This document shows positions 18,690 through 22,941 of a DNA stretch of 64,000 nt, piece by piece. The notes beneath the pieces were generated by a model, which saw only the letters and a program-made list of their open reading frames with translations, did not search any database and was not told the origin of the DNA. Each line of letters starts with the position of its first letter. The stretch's first letter is position 1. The DNA is from Hongsoonwoonella zoysiae (GTDB taxonomy: Bacteria > Pseudomonadota > Alphaproteobacteria > Rhizobiales > Stappiaceae): contig NZ_JABRXF010000001.1 of the NCBI RefSeq assembly GCF_013266695.1, forward strand, positions 1,119,236 through 1,183,235, written 5' to 3'. The position numbers were made by a program, and so were the translations under genes.

Positions 18690-19583
18690 TTACCCGTTGA
18701 AGATCAGCGCGCAGCCGATGATGACGAGGATCGCCCCCGCCCAGGCGCCAGGGGCGGGAATTTCCTTCGTACGCCACCACAACAGCGGCAGTTGTAGCGC
18801 GGGCGTCGTCGCCGACAGCGTGGAAATGATGCCGACTTCGCCGCCTGAAAGAGCGAACAGGATCAGCGTCATGCCGACACCCATGCCGAGCACGCCGGAA
18901 AGGGCGACCAGGCTTGTCACCCGCCACGTCAGCGGATTGGCCGGCTGAAACCGCTGCACCGGCAGGCGCATGAGGAGCGTCAGGCCAAGCGCCGCCGTGC
19001 CGACGCGAAGGGCGGAAACCGCGACGGGATCGACGCCGGTTTCCATGACCGGCCGAGCGATCAGCGAACCGATCGATTGCGCGAGCGCCGCCGCCAGCCC
19101 AAGCAGGATGCCGGCCCATAGCGGGCCCTTGACGCTTTCCCACTGGTGAAGTTGCGAGCGGCGCTTGCCGAAGGCGATGGCGAGAACCACGCCGCCGAAG
19201 GTTATCAGCGCACCGATCAGGGCACTTGGCGACAGATATTCGCCAAGCAGCAGCCAGCCGAGCAGCACGGACATGGGAGCATTGAGCGAGAACAGGATCG
19301 CGGTGCGGCGCGGGCCCATGCGGTTCATGGTCAAAAACAGCGCGGTATCTCCGAGAAAAATGCCGATGAAACCGGAGGCGAAGATTGCCGGAAGCTGGTC
19401 CGCACCGATCGTCTGCCATGTTCCGGCGACGATCGCATAGACGGCGAGCATGACGAAGACGATCGCCATGCGGATTCGGTTGAAGGCGATTGCGCCGAGA
19501 TGGGCGGCGGGGCCGGCTGCGATCAGGCCGGTCATGGCCCAGGTCAGCGCAGCGGCAAGCGCCGCGAATTCATAAATGAACAT
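18690..19583 (-). CDS. EamA/DMT family exporter
   Basis: A 297-residue membrane protein with ten hydrophobic helices in two EamA repeats (repeat one ends near GALITFGGVVLAIAFG; repeat two ends near WAGAILVIIGCALIFNG). It is a drug/metabolite transporter superfamily permease; substrate unknown. Convergent with the DUF1232 gene with only four bases between stops. Confidence 0.87.
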   Translation of the reverse strand: MFIYEFAALAAALTWAMTGLIAAGPAAHLGAIAFNRIRMAIVFVMLAVYAIVAGTWQTIGADQLPAIFASGFIGIFLGDTALFLTMNRMGPRRTAILFSLNAPMSVLLGWLLLGEYLSPSALIGALITFGGVVLAIAFGKRRSQLHQWESVKGPLWAGILLGLAAALAQSIGSLIARPVMETGVDPVAVSALRVGTAALGLTLLMRLPVQRFQPANPLTWRVTSLVALSGVLGMGVGMTLILFALSGGEVGIISTLSATTPALQLPLLWWRTKEIPAPGAWAGAILVIIGCALIFNG

Positions 19584-19717: not shown

Positions 19718-20752
19718 TCAGGCAGCCTGCTTCTTGGGCTGGATGAGCTTTCGGTTCACCAGAAGCTCTGCGATCTGGACCGTGTTGAGCGCGGCACCCT
19801 TCCTGAGATTGTCCGAGACAACCCAGATGTTGAGGCCGTTCTCGACCGTCGCATCCTCGCGGATGCGCGAAATGAAGGTCGCGTCCTCGCCCGCGCATTC
19901 GTAAGGCGTGACGTAGCCACCGTCCTCCTGCTTGTCGACGACGAGGCAGCCCGGCGCCTCGCGCAGGATCGAGCGGGCTTCTTCCGCCGAAAGCGGCTTT
20001 TCGAACTCGATGTTCACGGATTCCGCATGGCCGATGAAGACCGGCACACGCACGGCGGTGCAGGTGACCTTGATCTTCGGGTCGAGCATCTTCTTCGTTT
20101 CGGCCAGCACCTTCCACTCTTCCTTGGTGTAGCCGTCTTCCATGAACTGGTCGATGTGCGGGATTACGTTGAAGGCGATGCGCTTGGTGAAATTCTCGTT
20201 TTCAATCGGATCGTTCACGAAAACAGCGCGCGTCTGGTTGAAAAGCTCGTCCATCGCGTCCTTGCCCGCGCCTGAGACGGACTGGTAGGTCGAAACGACG
20301 ATCCGCTTGATGTTGGCCGCCTCATGCAGTGGCTTCAGCGCCACGACGAGCTGCGCCGTCGAGCAGTTCGGATTGGCGATGATGTTTTTCCGGCTAAAGC
20401 CCGAAATGGCGTCGGCATTCACTTCCGGCACGATCAGCGGCACGTCGGCGTCGTAGCGCCATGCGGAAGAATTGTCGATGACAACACAGCCCTTGGCGGC
20501 GATCTTCGGCGCCCATTCCTTTGAAACGTTGCCGCCGGCGGACATCAGGCAGATGTCCGTGTCGGAAAAGTCGTAGTTTTCCAGGGCCTGGCACTTCAGC
20601 GTGTCGTCGCCGTAGGAAACGTCCACCCCTTGCGAGCGGCGCGAGGCGATCGGCACCACCTTGTCGGCGGGAAAGCCGCGTTCGTGAAGGATATCGAGCA
20701 TTTCGCGGCCCACATTTCCCGTGGCGCCGACAACTGCGACCTTGTAACCCAT
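19718..20752 (-). CDS. asd: aspartate-semialdehyde dehydrogenase
   Basis: A 344-residue Asd, reducing aspartyl-phosphate to aspartate semialdehyde, the branch precursor of Lys/DAP, Thr and Met. Motifs: NADP site VVGATGNVGREML, catalytic Cys in NPNCSTAQLV, STYQSVSGAG and the His in VFIGHAESVN. Start at 20752 has GAGAGGAAG nine bases upstream. Its 5' region is notable: a Thr/Lys-rich small ORF and alternative stem-loops lie between a promoter-like site and asd, suggesting leader-peptide control. Confidence 0.96.
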   Translation of the reverse strand: MGYKVAVVGATGNVGREMLDILHERGFPADKVVPIASRRSQGVDVSYGDDTLKCQALENYDFSDTDICLMSAGGNVSKEWAPKIAAKGCVVIDNSSAWRYDADVPLIVPEVNADAISGFSRKNIIANPNCSTAQLVVALKPLHEAANIKRIVVSTYQSVSGAGKDAMDELFNQTRAVFVNDPIENENFTKRIAFNVIPHIDQFMEDGYTKEEWKVLAETKKMLDPKIKVTCTAVRVPVFIGHAESVNIEFEKPLSAEEARSILREAPGCLVVDKQEDGGYVTPYECAGEDATFISRIREDATVENGLNIWVVSDNLRKGAALNTVQIAELLVNRKLIQPKKQAA

Positions 20753-20862
20753 TTCGGTTCTTCCTCTCTTGTCCGCTCCCCGCGGCCTTTCGGTCGCATT
20801 TCACGACCGCCGGCCCGCTCGCGCCCCTCGTATCCCGGGGGAGCGCGGGACGAGAGGCACCG
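20753..20862 (-). promoter_or_regulatory. structured leader of asd (possible attenuator-like region)
   Basis: On the minus strand this 110-base stretch can fold in more than one way. CGGTCG (20804-20809) pairs with CGACCG (20791-20796) in a local hairpin. The same region, GGTCGTG (20802-20808), can instead pair with CACGACC (20881-20887) inside the Thr codons of the upstream small ORF. CGCTCCCC (20837-20844) can pair with GGGGAGCG (20774-20781) close to the asd ribosome site. No T-tract is present, so control would be translational or Rho-type rather than classical intrinsic attenuation. Confidence 0.45.
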
Positions 20863-20994
20863 TCAGACGGTGGTTTTCGTGGTCGTGGTTTTGGAAACGG
20901 TCGTCGTTCGAACGGTCTGGCGCGCGCGCGTCATCGCCACCGCGCCGAAGGCGGTCCTGAACAGGCTGGCGATGTCGTCAAGGCGGCGGGCCAT
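20863..20994 (-). CDS. candidate Thr/Lys-rich leader peptide upstream of asd
   Basis: A 43-codon frame (MARRLDDIASLFRTAFG...) ending in TTTVSKTTTTKTTV and TGA, 110 bases before asd on the same strand. An internal ATG at 20934 would give a 23-residue peptide beginning MTRARQTVR, close to typical leader peptide size and reminiscent of enterobacterial ThrL. Nine of the last 14 codons are Thr and two are Lys, both end products of the aspartate pathway that asd feeds. The stop codon lies in a hairpin (CACCGT/ACGGTG). Ribosome sites for both starts are weak. It has not been shown to be translated. Confidence 0.5.
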   Translation of the reverse strand: MARRLDDIASLFRTAFGAVAMTRARQTVRTTTVSKTTTTKTTV

Positions 20995-21029
20995 GAAATG
21001 AAAATCCGTTCGCTTCGAATTCGCCGCAC

Positions 21030-21058
21030 GTCATGACGGGAATGGCGGTGAAAGTCAA
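21030..21058 (-). promoter_or_regulatory. candidate promoter of the asd leader
   Basis: TTGACT (21053-21058, minus strand) with CATGAC 17 bases later (21030-21035). This would start a transcript about 30 bases before the leader ORF. The -35 is good, the -10 poor. Confidence 0.35.
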
Positions 21059-21101
21059 CTGTCATGCGCGTGATTGGAGGTCGCCGGGCCCGGAATGGCG
21101 C

Positions 21102-21569
21102 TTATTCGGCATTTCCGGCCGGATCTTGCGTTCGCCGGGCGATGCGCCAGCTTCCAGCCGTTCTCCCGGCCACAAGCCAGTAGACGAAACCTGCCACGAA
21201 GCCAGCTGCAAGCGCGACGCTCGTTCCGGGGCGCAGCGCGGGTTCGCCCGCCGTCACGCCCGGTTCGCCGAGGCTCCACAGCCCGAAGGCGATCAGCCCG
21301 CCCGCAGCGAGGTTGAGGATGAGTGATTTCATGCGCAGGATTTCGGCGACAAGAATCGCCGCGAATGCGGGAACCGCCGCCATTCCGCCGATGATCATGC
21401 CGGAAACCGCTCCGGTCCAGACGGTCGCGGCAAAGCGCGCCGGATCGCCCTCTATACCTTGCGGCTGGAACAGGCCCCAGGCGAGGAAAAGCCCGGCCGA
21501 GGCAAGCGCCAGCCCGTATCCGAAGACGATCTTGACGACCTGCCAGAGAAGCTTGCCCGCGTCGATCAT
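21102..21569 (-). CDS. membrane protein of unknown function, downstream of rlmN
   Basis: A 155-residue protein with four predicted hydrophobic helices (about 8-30, 45-72, 80-96, 115-135). I recognise no domain. It starts three bases after the rlmN stop and is surely in the same operon. The C-terminus (RRTQDPAGNAE) is cytoplasmic-looking. Confidence 0.75.
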   Translation of the reverse strand: MIDAGKLLWQVVKIVFGYGLALASAGLFLAWGLFQPQGIEGDPARFAATVWTGAVSGMIIGGMAAVPAFAAILVAEILRMKSLILNLAAGGLIAFGLWSLGEPGVTAGEPALRPGTSVALAAGFVAGFVYWLVAGRTAGSWRIARRTQDPAGNAE

Positions 21570-21572
21570 CGA

Positions 21573-22820
21573 TCAGGAAGCGTTTGCGCCGGTTTCCAGC
21601 GCCTCGCGGTCGCGCTTTCTCATCCGCTCGGATTCGGACTTGAGCTGGCCACAGGCGGCGAAAATGTCGCGCCCGCGCGGCGTCCTGATCGGCGAAGCAT
21701 ATCCCGCCCGGTTCACGACATCGGCGAATTCCTCGATCCGCTCCCAGTCGGAACACTCGTAAGGCGAGCCCGGCCACGGATTGAAGGGGATCAGGTTGAT
21801 CTTCGCCGGAATGCCCTTGAGAAGGCGTACGAGTTCCCTGGCGTCCGCAAGGCTGTCGTTCACGCCCTTCAGCATCACGTATTCGAAGGTAATGCGCTTG
21901 GCGTTGGAAAGACCGGGATAGTTGCGGCAGGCGTCCAGGAGTGCCGCGATGTTCCATTTCTTGTTGATCGGCACCAGCTCGTCGCGAAGGTCGTCGCGTA
22001 CGGCATGGAGTGATATGGCGAGCATGCAGCCGATCTCGTCTCCGGTACGCTCGATCATCGGTACGACGCCTGAGGTCGACAGGGTGATGCGCCGCTTGGA
22101 AAGCGACAGGCCTTCGCCGTCTGACGCGATCAGCAGCGCCTTTTTCACCTGGTCGAAATTATAAAGCGGCTCGCCCATGCCCATCATCACGACGTTCGTG
22201 ACGAGGCGGCCTTCGGACGGCACGACCGCGCCCTGCGGCGTCTCGGCGTCGGGAAAATCGCCCAGTCGGTCGCGCGCGATCAGCACCTGAGAGAGGATTT
22301 CCTCCGCAGTCAGATTGCGCACCAGCTTCTGGGTTCCGGTATGGCAGAAGGTGCAGGTGAGCGTGCAGCCGACCTGCGAGGAAACGCAAAGCGTGCCCCG
22401 GCCTTCCTCGGGGATATAGACGGTTTCCACCTCGACGGGCCGGCCCGCGCCGCGTGCCGGGAAGCGGAACAGCCATTTGCGCGTGCCGTCGACCGAAATC
22501 TGCTCGGAGACGATTTCCGGCCGCGCGATGGAAAAGTTTTCGGCAAGCTTGGCCCTGAGTTCCTTGGAAACATTGGTCATGCCCGAAAAATCGGAGACGC
22601 CGCGAACGTAGAGCCAGTGCCAGAGCTGGCTCACGCGCATGCGGGCCTGCTTTTCAGCAACCCCGATATCCTTCAAGGCCTGCGCAAGATCCTCGCGATC
22701 CATACCGACAAGGGAGGGCTTTTCCTGCACCCCCGTCGTTTCACGGGCAGCCGATGCCACCGCCTCCGCGAGCGGAGCGCCGGTTCGGGATTCATGCGCG
22801 ATATCGAGCGTTACGGGCAT
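21573..22820 (-). CDS. rlmN: 23S rRNA/tRNA (adenine C2) methyltransferase RlmN
   Basis: A 415-residue radical SAM enzyme that methylates C2 of A2503 in 23S rRNA and A37 in some tRNAs. The cluster motif [14 protein letters not shown] gives the C-x3-C-x2-C pattern; [32 protein letters not shown] and the catalytic Cys near the C-terminus (FAACGQL) follow. Start at 22820 ([12 protein letters not shown]) is chosen; the frame upstream to 22937 is not family-like. Confidence 0.95.
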
Positions 22821-22908
22821 AATGTTTCGTCCGGTAATTCGGTTTGCGTCCACGCTCGGTTTTCTCAAACCGCCGACGGAGGCGCAATCCAGCAGTATCT
22901 CGAACAGC

Positions 22909-22941
22909 AAAAACGGCGCCCGTGGGAGGGGTCCCACGGGC
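22909..22941 (-). terminator. intrinsic terminator on the minus strand (after ialB)
   Basis: GCCCGTGGGA (22918-22927) and TCCCACGGGC (22932-22941) form a perfect 10-bp stem with a four-base loop; the minus strand continues GCCGTTTTTGCTG. It sits about 110 bases past the ialB stop and 89 bases before the rlmN start, so it separates these two transcripts. Confidence 0.75.

Follow-up and report, generated by a model that had tools for sequence, protein, structure and literature searches.

A predicted threonine/lysine-codon leader peptide and competing RNA folds upstream of asd in Stappiaceae and related families

The asd locus and the reading frame upstream of it

The window that we analysed, a stretch of 64,000 nucleotides from the genome of Hongsoonwoonella zoysiae (Alphaproteobacteria; Stappiaceae), carries on its minus strand the gene for aspartate-semialdehyde dehydrogenase (asd, 19718-20752), which is the gene thought to be controlled. 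It was identified as an open reading frame (ORF) whose product matched the TIGR01296 asd_B profile with 464.6 bits (cut-off 324.2); among named relatives, Stappia sediminis is nearest, with an asd protein that is 97% identical. The enzyme stands at a branch point, feeding the synthesis of lysine (and of diaminopimelate for the cell wall), threonine, methionine and isoleucine. The next ORF upstream (21102-21569, minus strand) leaves a gap of 349 nt before asd. Also on the minus strand near asd are genes for an RlmN-type radical-SAM protein upstream (21573-22937) and an EamA-family transporter downstream (18690-19583).

An ORF of 43 codons lies in this gap (20863-20994, minus strand), reads MARRLDDIASLFRTAFGAVAMTRARQTVRTTTVSKTTTTKTTV and ends 110 nt ahead of the asd ATG. 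Its last 14 codons, TTTVSKTTTTKTTV (20866-20907, minus strand), comprise nine threonine and two lysine codons and were assigned as the putative sensing run from the codon count and from comparison with relatives. An inner ATG would give a peptide of 23 residues. On re-reading, the frame, its codon content, the inner start and the length of the gap were all as the original prediction had described them. Leader starts resemble each other in some relatives (MARRLADIA, MVRRIADIA, MARYSADIA and MALRHDDIA), and the ATG of the 43-codon frame is therefore the likely start; the inner ATG is also present in loci L003 and L004. The leader peptide had no match in Pfam or NCBIfam, and a search of its own genome with the peptide returned a single match, itself. 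No same-strand threonine/lysine tail was found near the homoserine dehydrogenase gene or the four amino-acid-kinase genes of this genome. Among the homoserine dehydrogenase and kinase loci checked, L289 had one weak tail of this type, on the opposite strand.

The short frame would be translated from a promoter of its own. TTGACT at 21053-21058 (minus strand), where the original prediction had placed it, is the probable -35 element, as judged from the sequence and from comparison: of 150 leader loci, 142 had TTGAC at a distance of 70-215 nt ahead of the stop of the leader, against 14.4 expected from mononucleotide shuffles. A generic sigma-70 scan scored no promoter at the TTGACT site of the window.

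Recurrence of the leader and selection on its codons

Regions of up to 450 nt before asd were taken from related genomes. For every stop codon situated 40-230 nt upstream of asd, threonine plus lysine codons (T+K) were counted among the 14 preceding codons, and the highest count served as the score of the region. A count of at least 7 was taken as a leader, and loci with counts of 5 or 6 were treated as negatives. The regions came from 61 family genomes (30 loci), further contigs (80 loci), 141 of 193 genomes of the window's order with an asd match, and 38 of 169 genomes of the class outside that order (a hand count). The weakest asd matches, some listed ones and 9 of the 52 families of the order were left out, L120 was dropped because of its short contig, and asd starts were uncertain in a few loci (L214 and L218).

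Of the 269 distinct regions before asd, 158 had a leader, compared with 3 of 5,380 dinucleotide shuffles, though 158/269 is not a prevalence because close relatives are abundant in the sample. None of the 269 reverse complements reached the threshold, the maximum being 5. At least one locus with a leader was found in 26 of the 43 families sampled within the window's order and in 2 of the 32 sampled outside it, several families being represented by one locus; the remaining 17 of the 43 families had no leader at this threshold. Conservation of threonine and lysine codons in the asd 5' regions of relatives, which had been proposed as a check of the prediction, was thus observed. Since the arrangement is kept in many related families, it is probably a built-in amino-acid sensor.

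Several loci departed from the common form. Agrobacterium and similar loci (L059, L060, L065, L066, L071 and L075) had a weaker tail, for example ITAKTTIKTV, with T+K of 5 and 6 in L059 and L060 and the other four judged by eye. The sequence after the leader looks retained in these loci, in which the sensed residues may have shifted or the leader may be decaying. The leaders outside the order were those of L138 (f172) and L149 (f53), for which ancient origin, transfer and convergence are all candidate origins; L149 lacks the typical A/B/C layout described below. Other residue-rich tails in the leaderless loci followed no common pattern, save for leucine-rich tails in two loci of family f34.

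We compared synonymous with non-synonymous differences in the last eight leader codons of Stappiaceae (f1; this name, and that of Rhizobiaceae for f24, was taken from named loci in each). In frame, 1997 of 3785 differences were synonymous and 1788 non-synonymous, compared with 313 of 3355 synonymous (313:3042) and 394 of 3303 (394:2909) in the two shifted frames. The in-frame counts for Rhizobiaceae were 498 synonymous and 234 non-synonymous, a figure that has no shifted-frame control. In families f41 and f20 the in-frame synonymous share was above the shifted-frame controls, and in f44 (9:48, 9/57) it was not above one of the two shifted frames (11:39, 11/50). These counts indicate that selection acts on the leader reading frame in the two large families, clearly so in Stappiaceae, and at most weakly in small ones.

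Weighted by family, the last 14 codons were 44% threonine and 16% lysine. With a filter that did not require lysine, at least one lysine codon was present in all 150 distinct leader loci and at least two in 132, and asparagine codons were nearly absent (0.2 against 66.1 lysine codons, family-weighted). The AAA:AAG ratio of the lysine codons was 45.9:20.2 in the leaders (family-weighted). The asd genes, in contrast, avoid AAA, with a ratio of 70:1055 at the 7032-nt leader loci, most of which are from Rhizobiaceae, and of 1:22 in the window. The codons concerned are simple repeats, as would be expected if the leader were a functionless ACC/AAA-rich stretch arising by low-complexity coincidence. 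This explanation is scarcely credible in view of the excess of real loci over shuffles, the in-frame synonymous turnover in Stappiaceae, and the presence of lysine with hardly any asparagine codons.

Leader peptides diverge across families and retain mainly their threonine/lysine character, as illustrated by the tails GQTTLTTTTTTTKV, TLTTFTTTTSVKTT, TTTTKTTTATKVAG, GATKTTTTTKTTEL, VSSKTKAKTTTKTV and ITTPTTKTKTGITV found among relatives. The tail CKTTAKTTTKTV, which precedes asd in the Ensifer loci L079, L081 and L095, has six threonine and three lysine residues. A Ribo-seq study of Sinorhizobium meliloti (2023; PMC10117765) describes, in the portion available to us, a small ORF termed SEP5 with six threonine and three lysine codons near its 3' end, located in the 5' UTR of an 'aspartate dehydrogenase' gene and called 'possibly a leader peptide'. 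Its translation was verified there by Ribo-seq and Western blot, and its conservation was given as Sinorhizobium only. As the Ensifer tails have exactly the codon count of SEP5, we took SEP5 to be the asd leader of these loci. The statement of the original prediction that no such asd leader had been described in this lineage therefore needs amendment to include this earlier suggestion; beyond it, titles and abstract openings of the open-access literature gave no asd leader in these bacteria, and the terms asd and semialdehyde were absent where queried in the accessible parts of PMC7298713, PMC1273637, PMC2965389 and PMC8632094. SEP5 and the leader of the window are both small ORFs with threonine/lysine codons lying upstream of a gene. 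In the available portion of the report, SEP5 is described without an RNA fold or mechanism and as restricted to Sinorhizobium, whereas the asd leaders studied here recur in many families together with competing folds.

A tagged SEP5 protein was detected and was soluble (PMC10117765, as far as its accessible text goes) and N-termini are similar in some relatives, both of which would fit a small protein that is itself the functional product and acts in trans, as has been reported for S. meliloti peTrpL, without controlling asd. We consider this improbable, given that mainly threonine/lysine character is retained across families and that the RNA between leader and asd has competing, partly covarying folds. 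The constant position of the leader before asd carries no weight here, because asd upstream regions were the only ones sampled.

Competing folds between the leader stop and asd

The leader stop was 97-124 nt from the asd start in 134 of 150 loci, and the intervening segments followed a usual order, given here with the minus-strand coordinates of the window. A C-rich post-stop segment, R2 (20846-20860), is followed by A, an CUCUCCCC-like segment which in the window is CGCTCCCC (20838-20845), and by B (20821-20837), the complement of A. A variable spacer hairpin comes next (approximately 20784-20815), which contains GGTCGTG and is not conserved in sequence. Segment C (GGGGAGCG, 20774-20781), a second complement of A, lies immediately upstream of the asd Shine-Dalgarno (SD) region, GAGAGG (20763-20768), which is complementary to CCTCTC of R2; in families f14 and f11, C is much farther upstream of the SD. 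R2 may pair with B or, in Stappiaceae, with the SD region, as suggested by covariation and the own-partner test described below, and A with B or C, as suggested by own-partner tests. The assignment of B, for which R2 and A would compete, rests on pairing tests, folding and covariation. Segment A was located by a regular expression, which had no match in 11 of 150 loci; a default position was used for these and where A began before position 12.

The original prediction had placed CGCTCCCC at 20837-20844; the segment is present, one base away from that position, and its proposed pairing with GGGGAGCG, correctly located, is conserved. CACGACC (20881-20887) and GGTCGTG (20802-20808) are likewise where they had been placed, but the switch stem that they were proposed to form was found in 2 of 40 distinct Stappiaceae loci, those of the window and of L003, its closest relative there (swap p=0.41). 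This stem was ruled out as a general switch, and better support was obtained for a switch just past the stop of the leader, a choice between R2:B and A:B.

For the R2:B hairpin of Stappiaceae, pairing was seen in 89.5% of cells; 24 cells had changed on both sides of a pair, compared with 3.3 +/- 2.2 in shuffled and 2-9 in slid versions. These changes were spread over 6 pairs, against 2.4 when shuffled, and the number of pair types was not raised (16 compared with 14.6). In Rhizobiaceae, R2:B forms in 98.8% of cells, with seven both-side cells, all at a single pair. The rival fold there, in which the 5' half of A pairs with the SD and the 3' half with B, forms in 99.3% of cells and has three both-side cells, one of which, from one sequence, sits in the SD helix. 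Both folds are thus nearly universal in Rhizobiaceae though B is common to both. Covariation of the stems was evident for R2:B in Stappiaceae and thin in Rhizobiaceae, and A:C together with R2:SD showed none on alignment A1, in which the SD columns are misregistered.

We also used an alignment-free own-partner test, which asks whether a segment pairs better with the partner from its own locus than with those of other loci, using double-centring and narrow segments. Thirteen pairs were tested in three sets (39 tests, two of them empty) with 5,000 permutations and with kinship ignored. Over the 29 groups, A:B gave p=0.0002 and A:C p=0.0016, each in 22 of 29, and the value for A:C would fail Bonferroni correction. 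R2:SD in Stappiaceae (28/40) and R2:B in Rhizobiaceae (40/48) both gave p=0.0002, while in Rhizobiaceae R2:SD and A:C ran opposite to expectation (p>0.99). L:R2 gave no signal. Low values were also obtained for pairings outside the model, namely L:SD in Stappiaceae (0.022) and L:SD (0.011) and M1:M2 (0.048) among the representatives. In Stappiaceae, pairing of B was also better with the C/SD region of the same locus than with those of other loci (p=0.0002, 37/40), a pairing that the model does not use.

An exact 6-mer with two well-separated downstream complements was found in 12 of 29 group representatives; among shuffles the figure was 42 of 1,160, and among leaderless loci it was 7 of 106. 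The Stappiaceae and Rhizobiaceae representatives had none. The longest helix that the SD region can form with the 34 nt following the stop averaged 5.37 bp against 4.84 bp in shuffles (p=0.003), the excess arising mainly in some families. Minimum-energy z-scores separated leader loci (mean -1.46, 29 representatives) from leaderless loci (-0.93, 36 loci) weakly. Broad duplex swaps across families also gave a weak signal, because pyrimidine-rich and purine-rich strands pair with nearly anything. Taken with kinship ignored, the comparisons support mutually exclusive folds, R2:B and A:B, downstream of the leader.

Two other results were set aside. A column-pair G-test on alignment A1 returned plausible pairs and phylogenetic noise together, and a pairing of the leader 3' end with R2 in Stappiaceae (CACCG:CGGTG) gave no own-partner signal and had a probability of 0.09 without a ribosome. 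Its Rhizobiaceae counterpart, GGCCA:UGGCC, was predicted (0.55) but is nearly invariant.

We modelled the effect of ribosome position by folding the RNA up to the end of B with the upstream sequence masked by the ribosome footprint. The mean probability of A:B was 0.40 with the ribosome on the first threonine/lysine codon, 0.38 in mid-run, 0.68 on the last such codon and 0.81 at the stop, so that a ribosome on the last codon already comes close to the effect of one that has reached the stop; in many families no gap separates the run from the stop. Moving the ribosome from mid-run to the stop raised the probability in 22 of 29 groups and lowered it in 1. This change was 0.425, compared with 0.142 for shuffled downstream parts, and was larger than shuffled in 20 of 29 groups (p=0.001; at most six loci per group were used here and in the SD-helix/CACGACC test). 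In silico, then, ribosome position picks the hairpin, mid-run favouring one fold and the stop the other. In Rhizobiaceae the values were 0.69 without a ribosome, 0.19-0.33 with one stalled at the mid or first codon and 0.85 at the stop; the state without a ribosome thus favours A:B, as in classical trp logic, unlike that of Stappiaceae (0.18). Over the 29 groups the ribosome-free value was above mid-run in 12 and below it in 7, and was not clearly repressive. In f20, f14 and f28 the run is diluted or parted from the stop by other codons (for example GGTAG, GTTGA or KVAG endings), and the coverage by a stalled ribosome should differ from that in families where the run abuts the stop.

Output at asd and relation to known attenuators

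The core of the original prediction, that a threonine/lysine leader peptide precedes asd and is followed by alternative folds, was strongly supported by comparison, and we regard a leader with a fold switch as very probable. Its function, as read from sequence, is probably that of a ribosome-mediated attenuator that senses the supply of threonyl- and lysyl-tRNA and sets asd expression. When threonine or lysine is scarce, the ribosome would stall within the run and leave R2 free, R2:B would form and asd would stay on. With ample supplies of both, the ribosome would run on to the stop codon and cover part of R2, and B would pair with A; once the ribosome has gone, R2 (in Stappiaceae) or the 5' half of A (in Rhizobiaceae) would pair with the asd SD, and asd translation would be turned down.

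A terminator scan of 20600-21200 found none on the minus strand, the sole terminator-like site being on the plus strand, and the locus of the window shows no intrinsic terminator, in which a U-tract would follow a GC-rich hairpin. TTTTT was present in the interval from leader stop to asd in 2 of 150 loci, and TTTT in 16 of 150. Complementarity to the asd SD is conserved in both Stappiaceae and Rhizobiaceae. The lack of a minus-strand terminator or U-tract, together with this complementarity, favours translational attenuation in these two families, and since one of the folds there can sequester the ribosome-binding site of asd, it is the best reading, with about an even chance of being correct.

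The main rival keeps the leader and the fold switch as proposed but has premature transcription termination as the output, either Rho-dependent or at a terminator lacking a U-tract. The A:B hairpin is a GC-rich stem at the classical terminator position, C is far from the SD in some families (f14 and f11), and models of SD opening gave no consistent effect. Folding the whole leader to equilibrium gave group means for SD opening of 0.52 free, 0.48 mid-run and 0.54 at the stop. When the first-formed hairpin was locked, opening was greater in the stalled than in the released state in 16 of 29 groups (p=0.16); in Stappiaceae the values were 0.67 stalled and 0.55 released. The scarcity of U-tracts, the position of the only terminator-like site on the plus strand and the conserved SD complementarity speak against termination, which we regard as unlikely.

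The 5' region of asd is structured, and asd is riboswitch-controlled in other phyla. A metabolite-binding riboswitch after the leader, with the threonine/lysine ORF incidental, is nevertheless very improbable given the Rfam results and the frame-level selection on threonine and lysine codons. The window had no Rfam match, including none to the lysine riboswitch aptamer, and the locus from its own genome (L002) and five relatives had none at the gathering score; a search of 20700-21100 at E<5 gave two plus-strand matches (E=3.8 and E=4.6).

The thr operon attenuator of Enterobacteria, with its leader peptide ThrL, combines a threonine-codon run with competing RNA folds, a likeness shared by the asd leader. 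The run is threonine plus isoleucine in ThrL and threonine plus lysine here, the gene is asd, and, unlike ThrL, the asd leader lacks an evident U-tract terminator and matches no Rfam family. Lysine riboswitches exert feedback on lysine-pathway genes through the 5' leader; they share lysine-branch feedback via a 5' leader with the asd system but sense by an aptamer, whereas the asd leader would sense by codons. In ermC-type translational attenuation, a ribosome stalled on the leader alters a fold governing translation of the next gene. The trigger for ermC is an antibiotic, whereas for the asd leader it would be amino-acid supply and the target is a biosynthetic gene. This type of attenuation is named in the accessible part of PMC2965389. 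The trpL leader of S. meliloti, in what is available of PMC7298713 and PMC10117765, acts by transcription attenuation that releases an attenuator sRNA; it is likewise a ribosome-dependent attenuator in the same bacterial class, whereas the asd leader has no evident terminator.

What is new here, on the comparative evidence, is a widely conserved threonine/lysine leader with a comparatively supported fold switch, a variant of leader-peptide attenuation for which there was one published hint. We put forward, tentatively and as slightly short of an even chance, a widespread, uncatalogued alphaproteobacterial asd attenuator without an intrinsic terminator and with two inputs, threonine and lysine (the latter mostly via AAA, which is avoided in asd genes), in which a ribosome-set choice of hairpin frees or buries the ribosome-binding site. 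If this is true, many small ORFs that now lack annotation would gain a function as codon sensors for threonine and lysine at a shared step, and such sensors would explain feedback at the asd enzyme. S. meliloti allows direct testing, translation of what is presumably the same leader being documented in the available text of PMC10117765.

A different arrangement was seen by eye in order family f36, which is leaderless. In the last 80 nt before asd of L176, L177, L183 and L193, a hairpin followed by TTTTT abuts the asd SD, and TTTTT precedes asd in five of the six f36 loci; asd in this family is perhaps under a different, terminator-based control.
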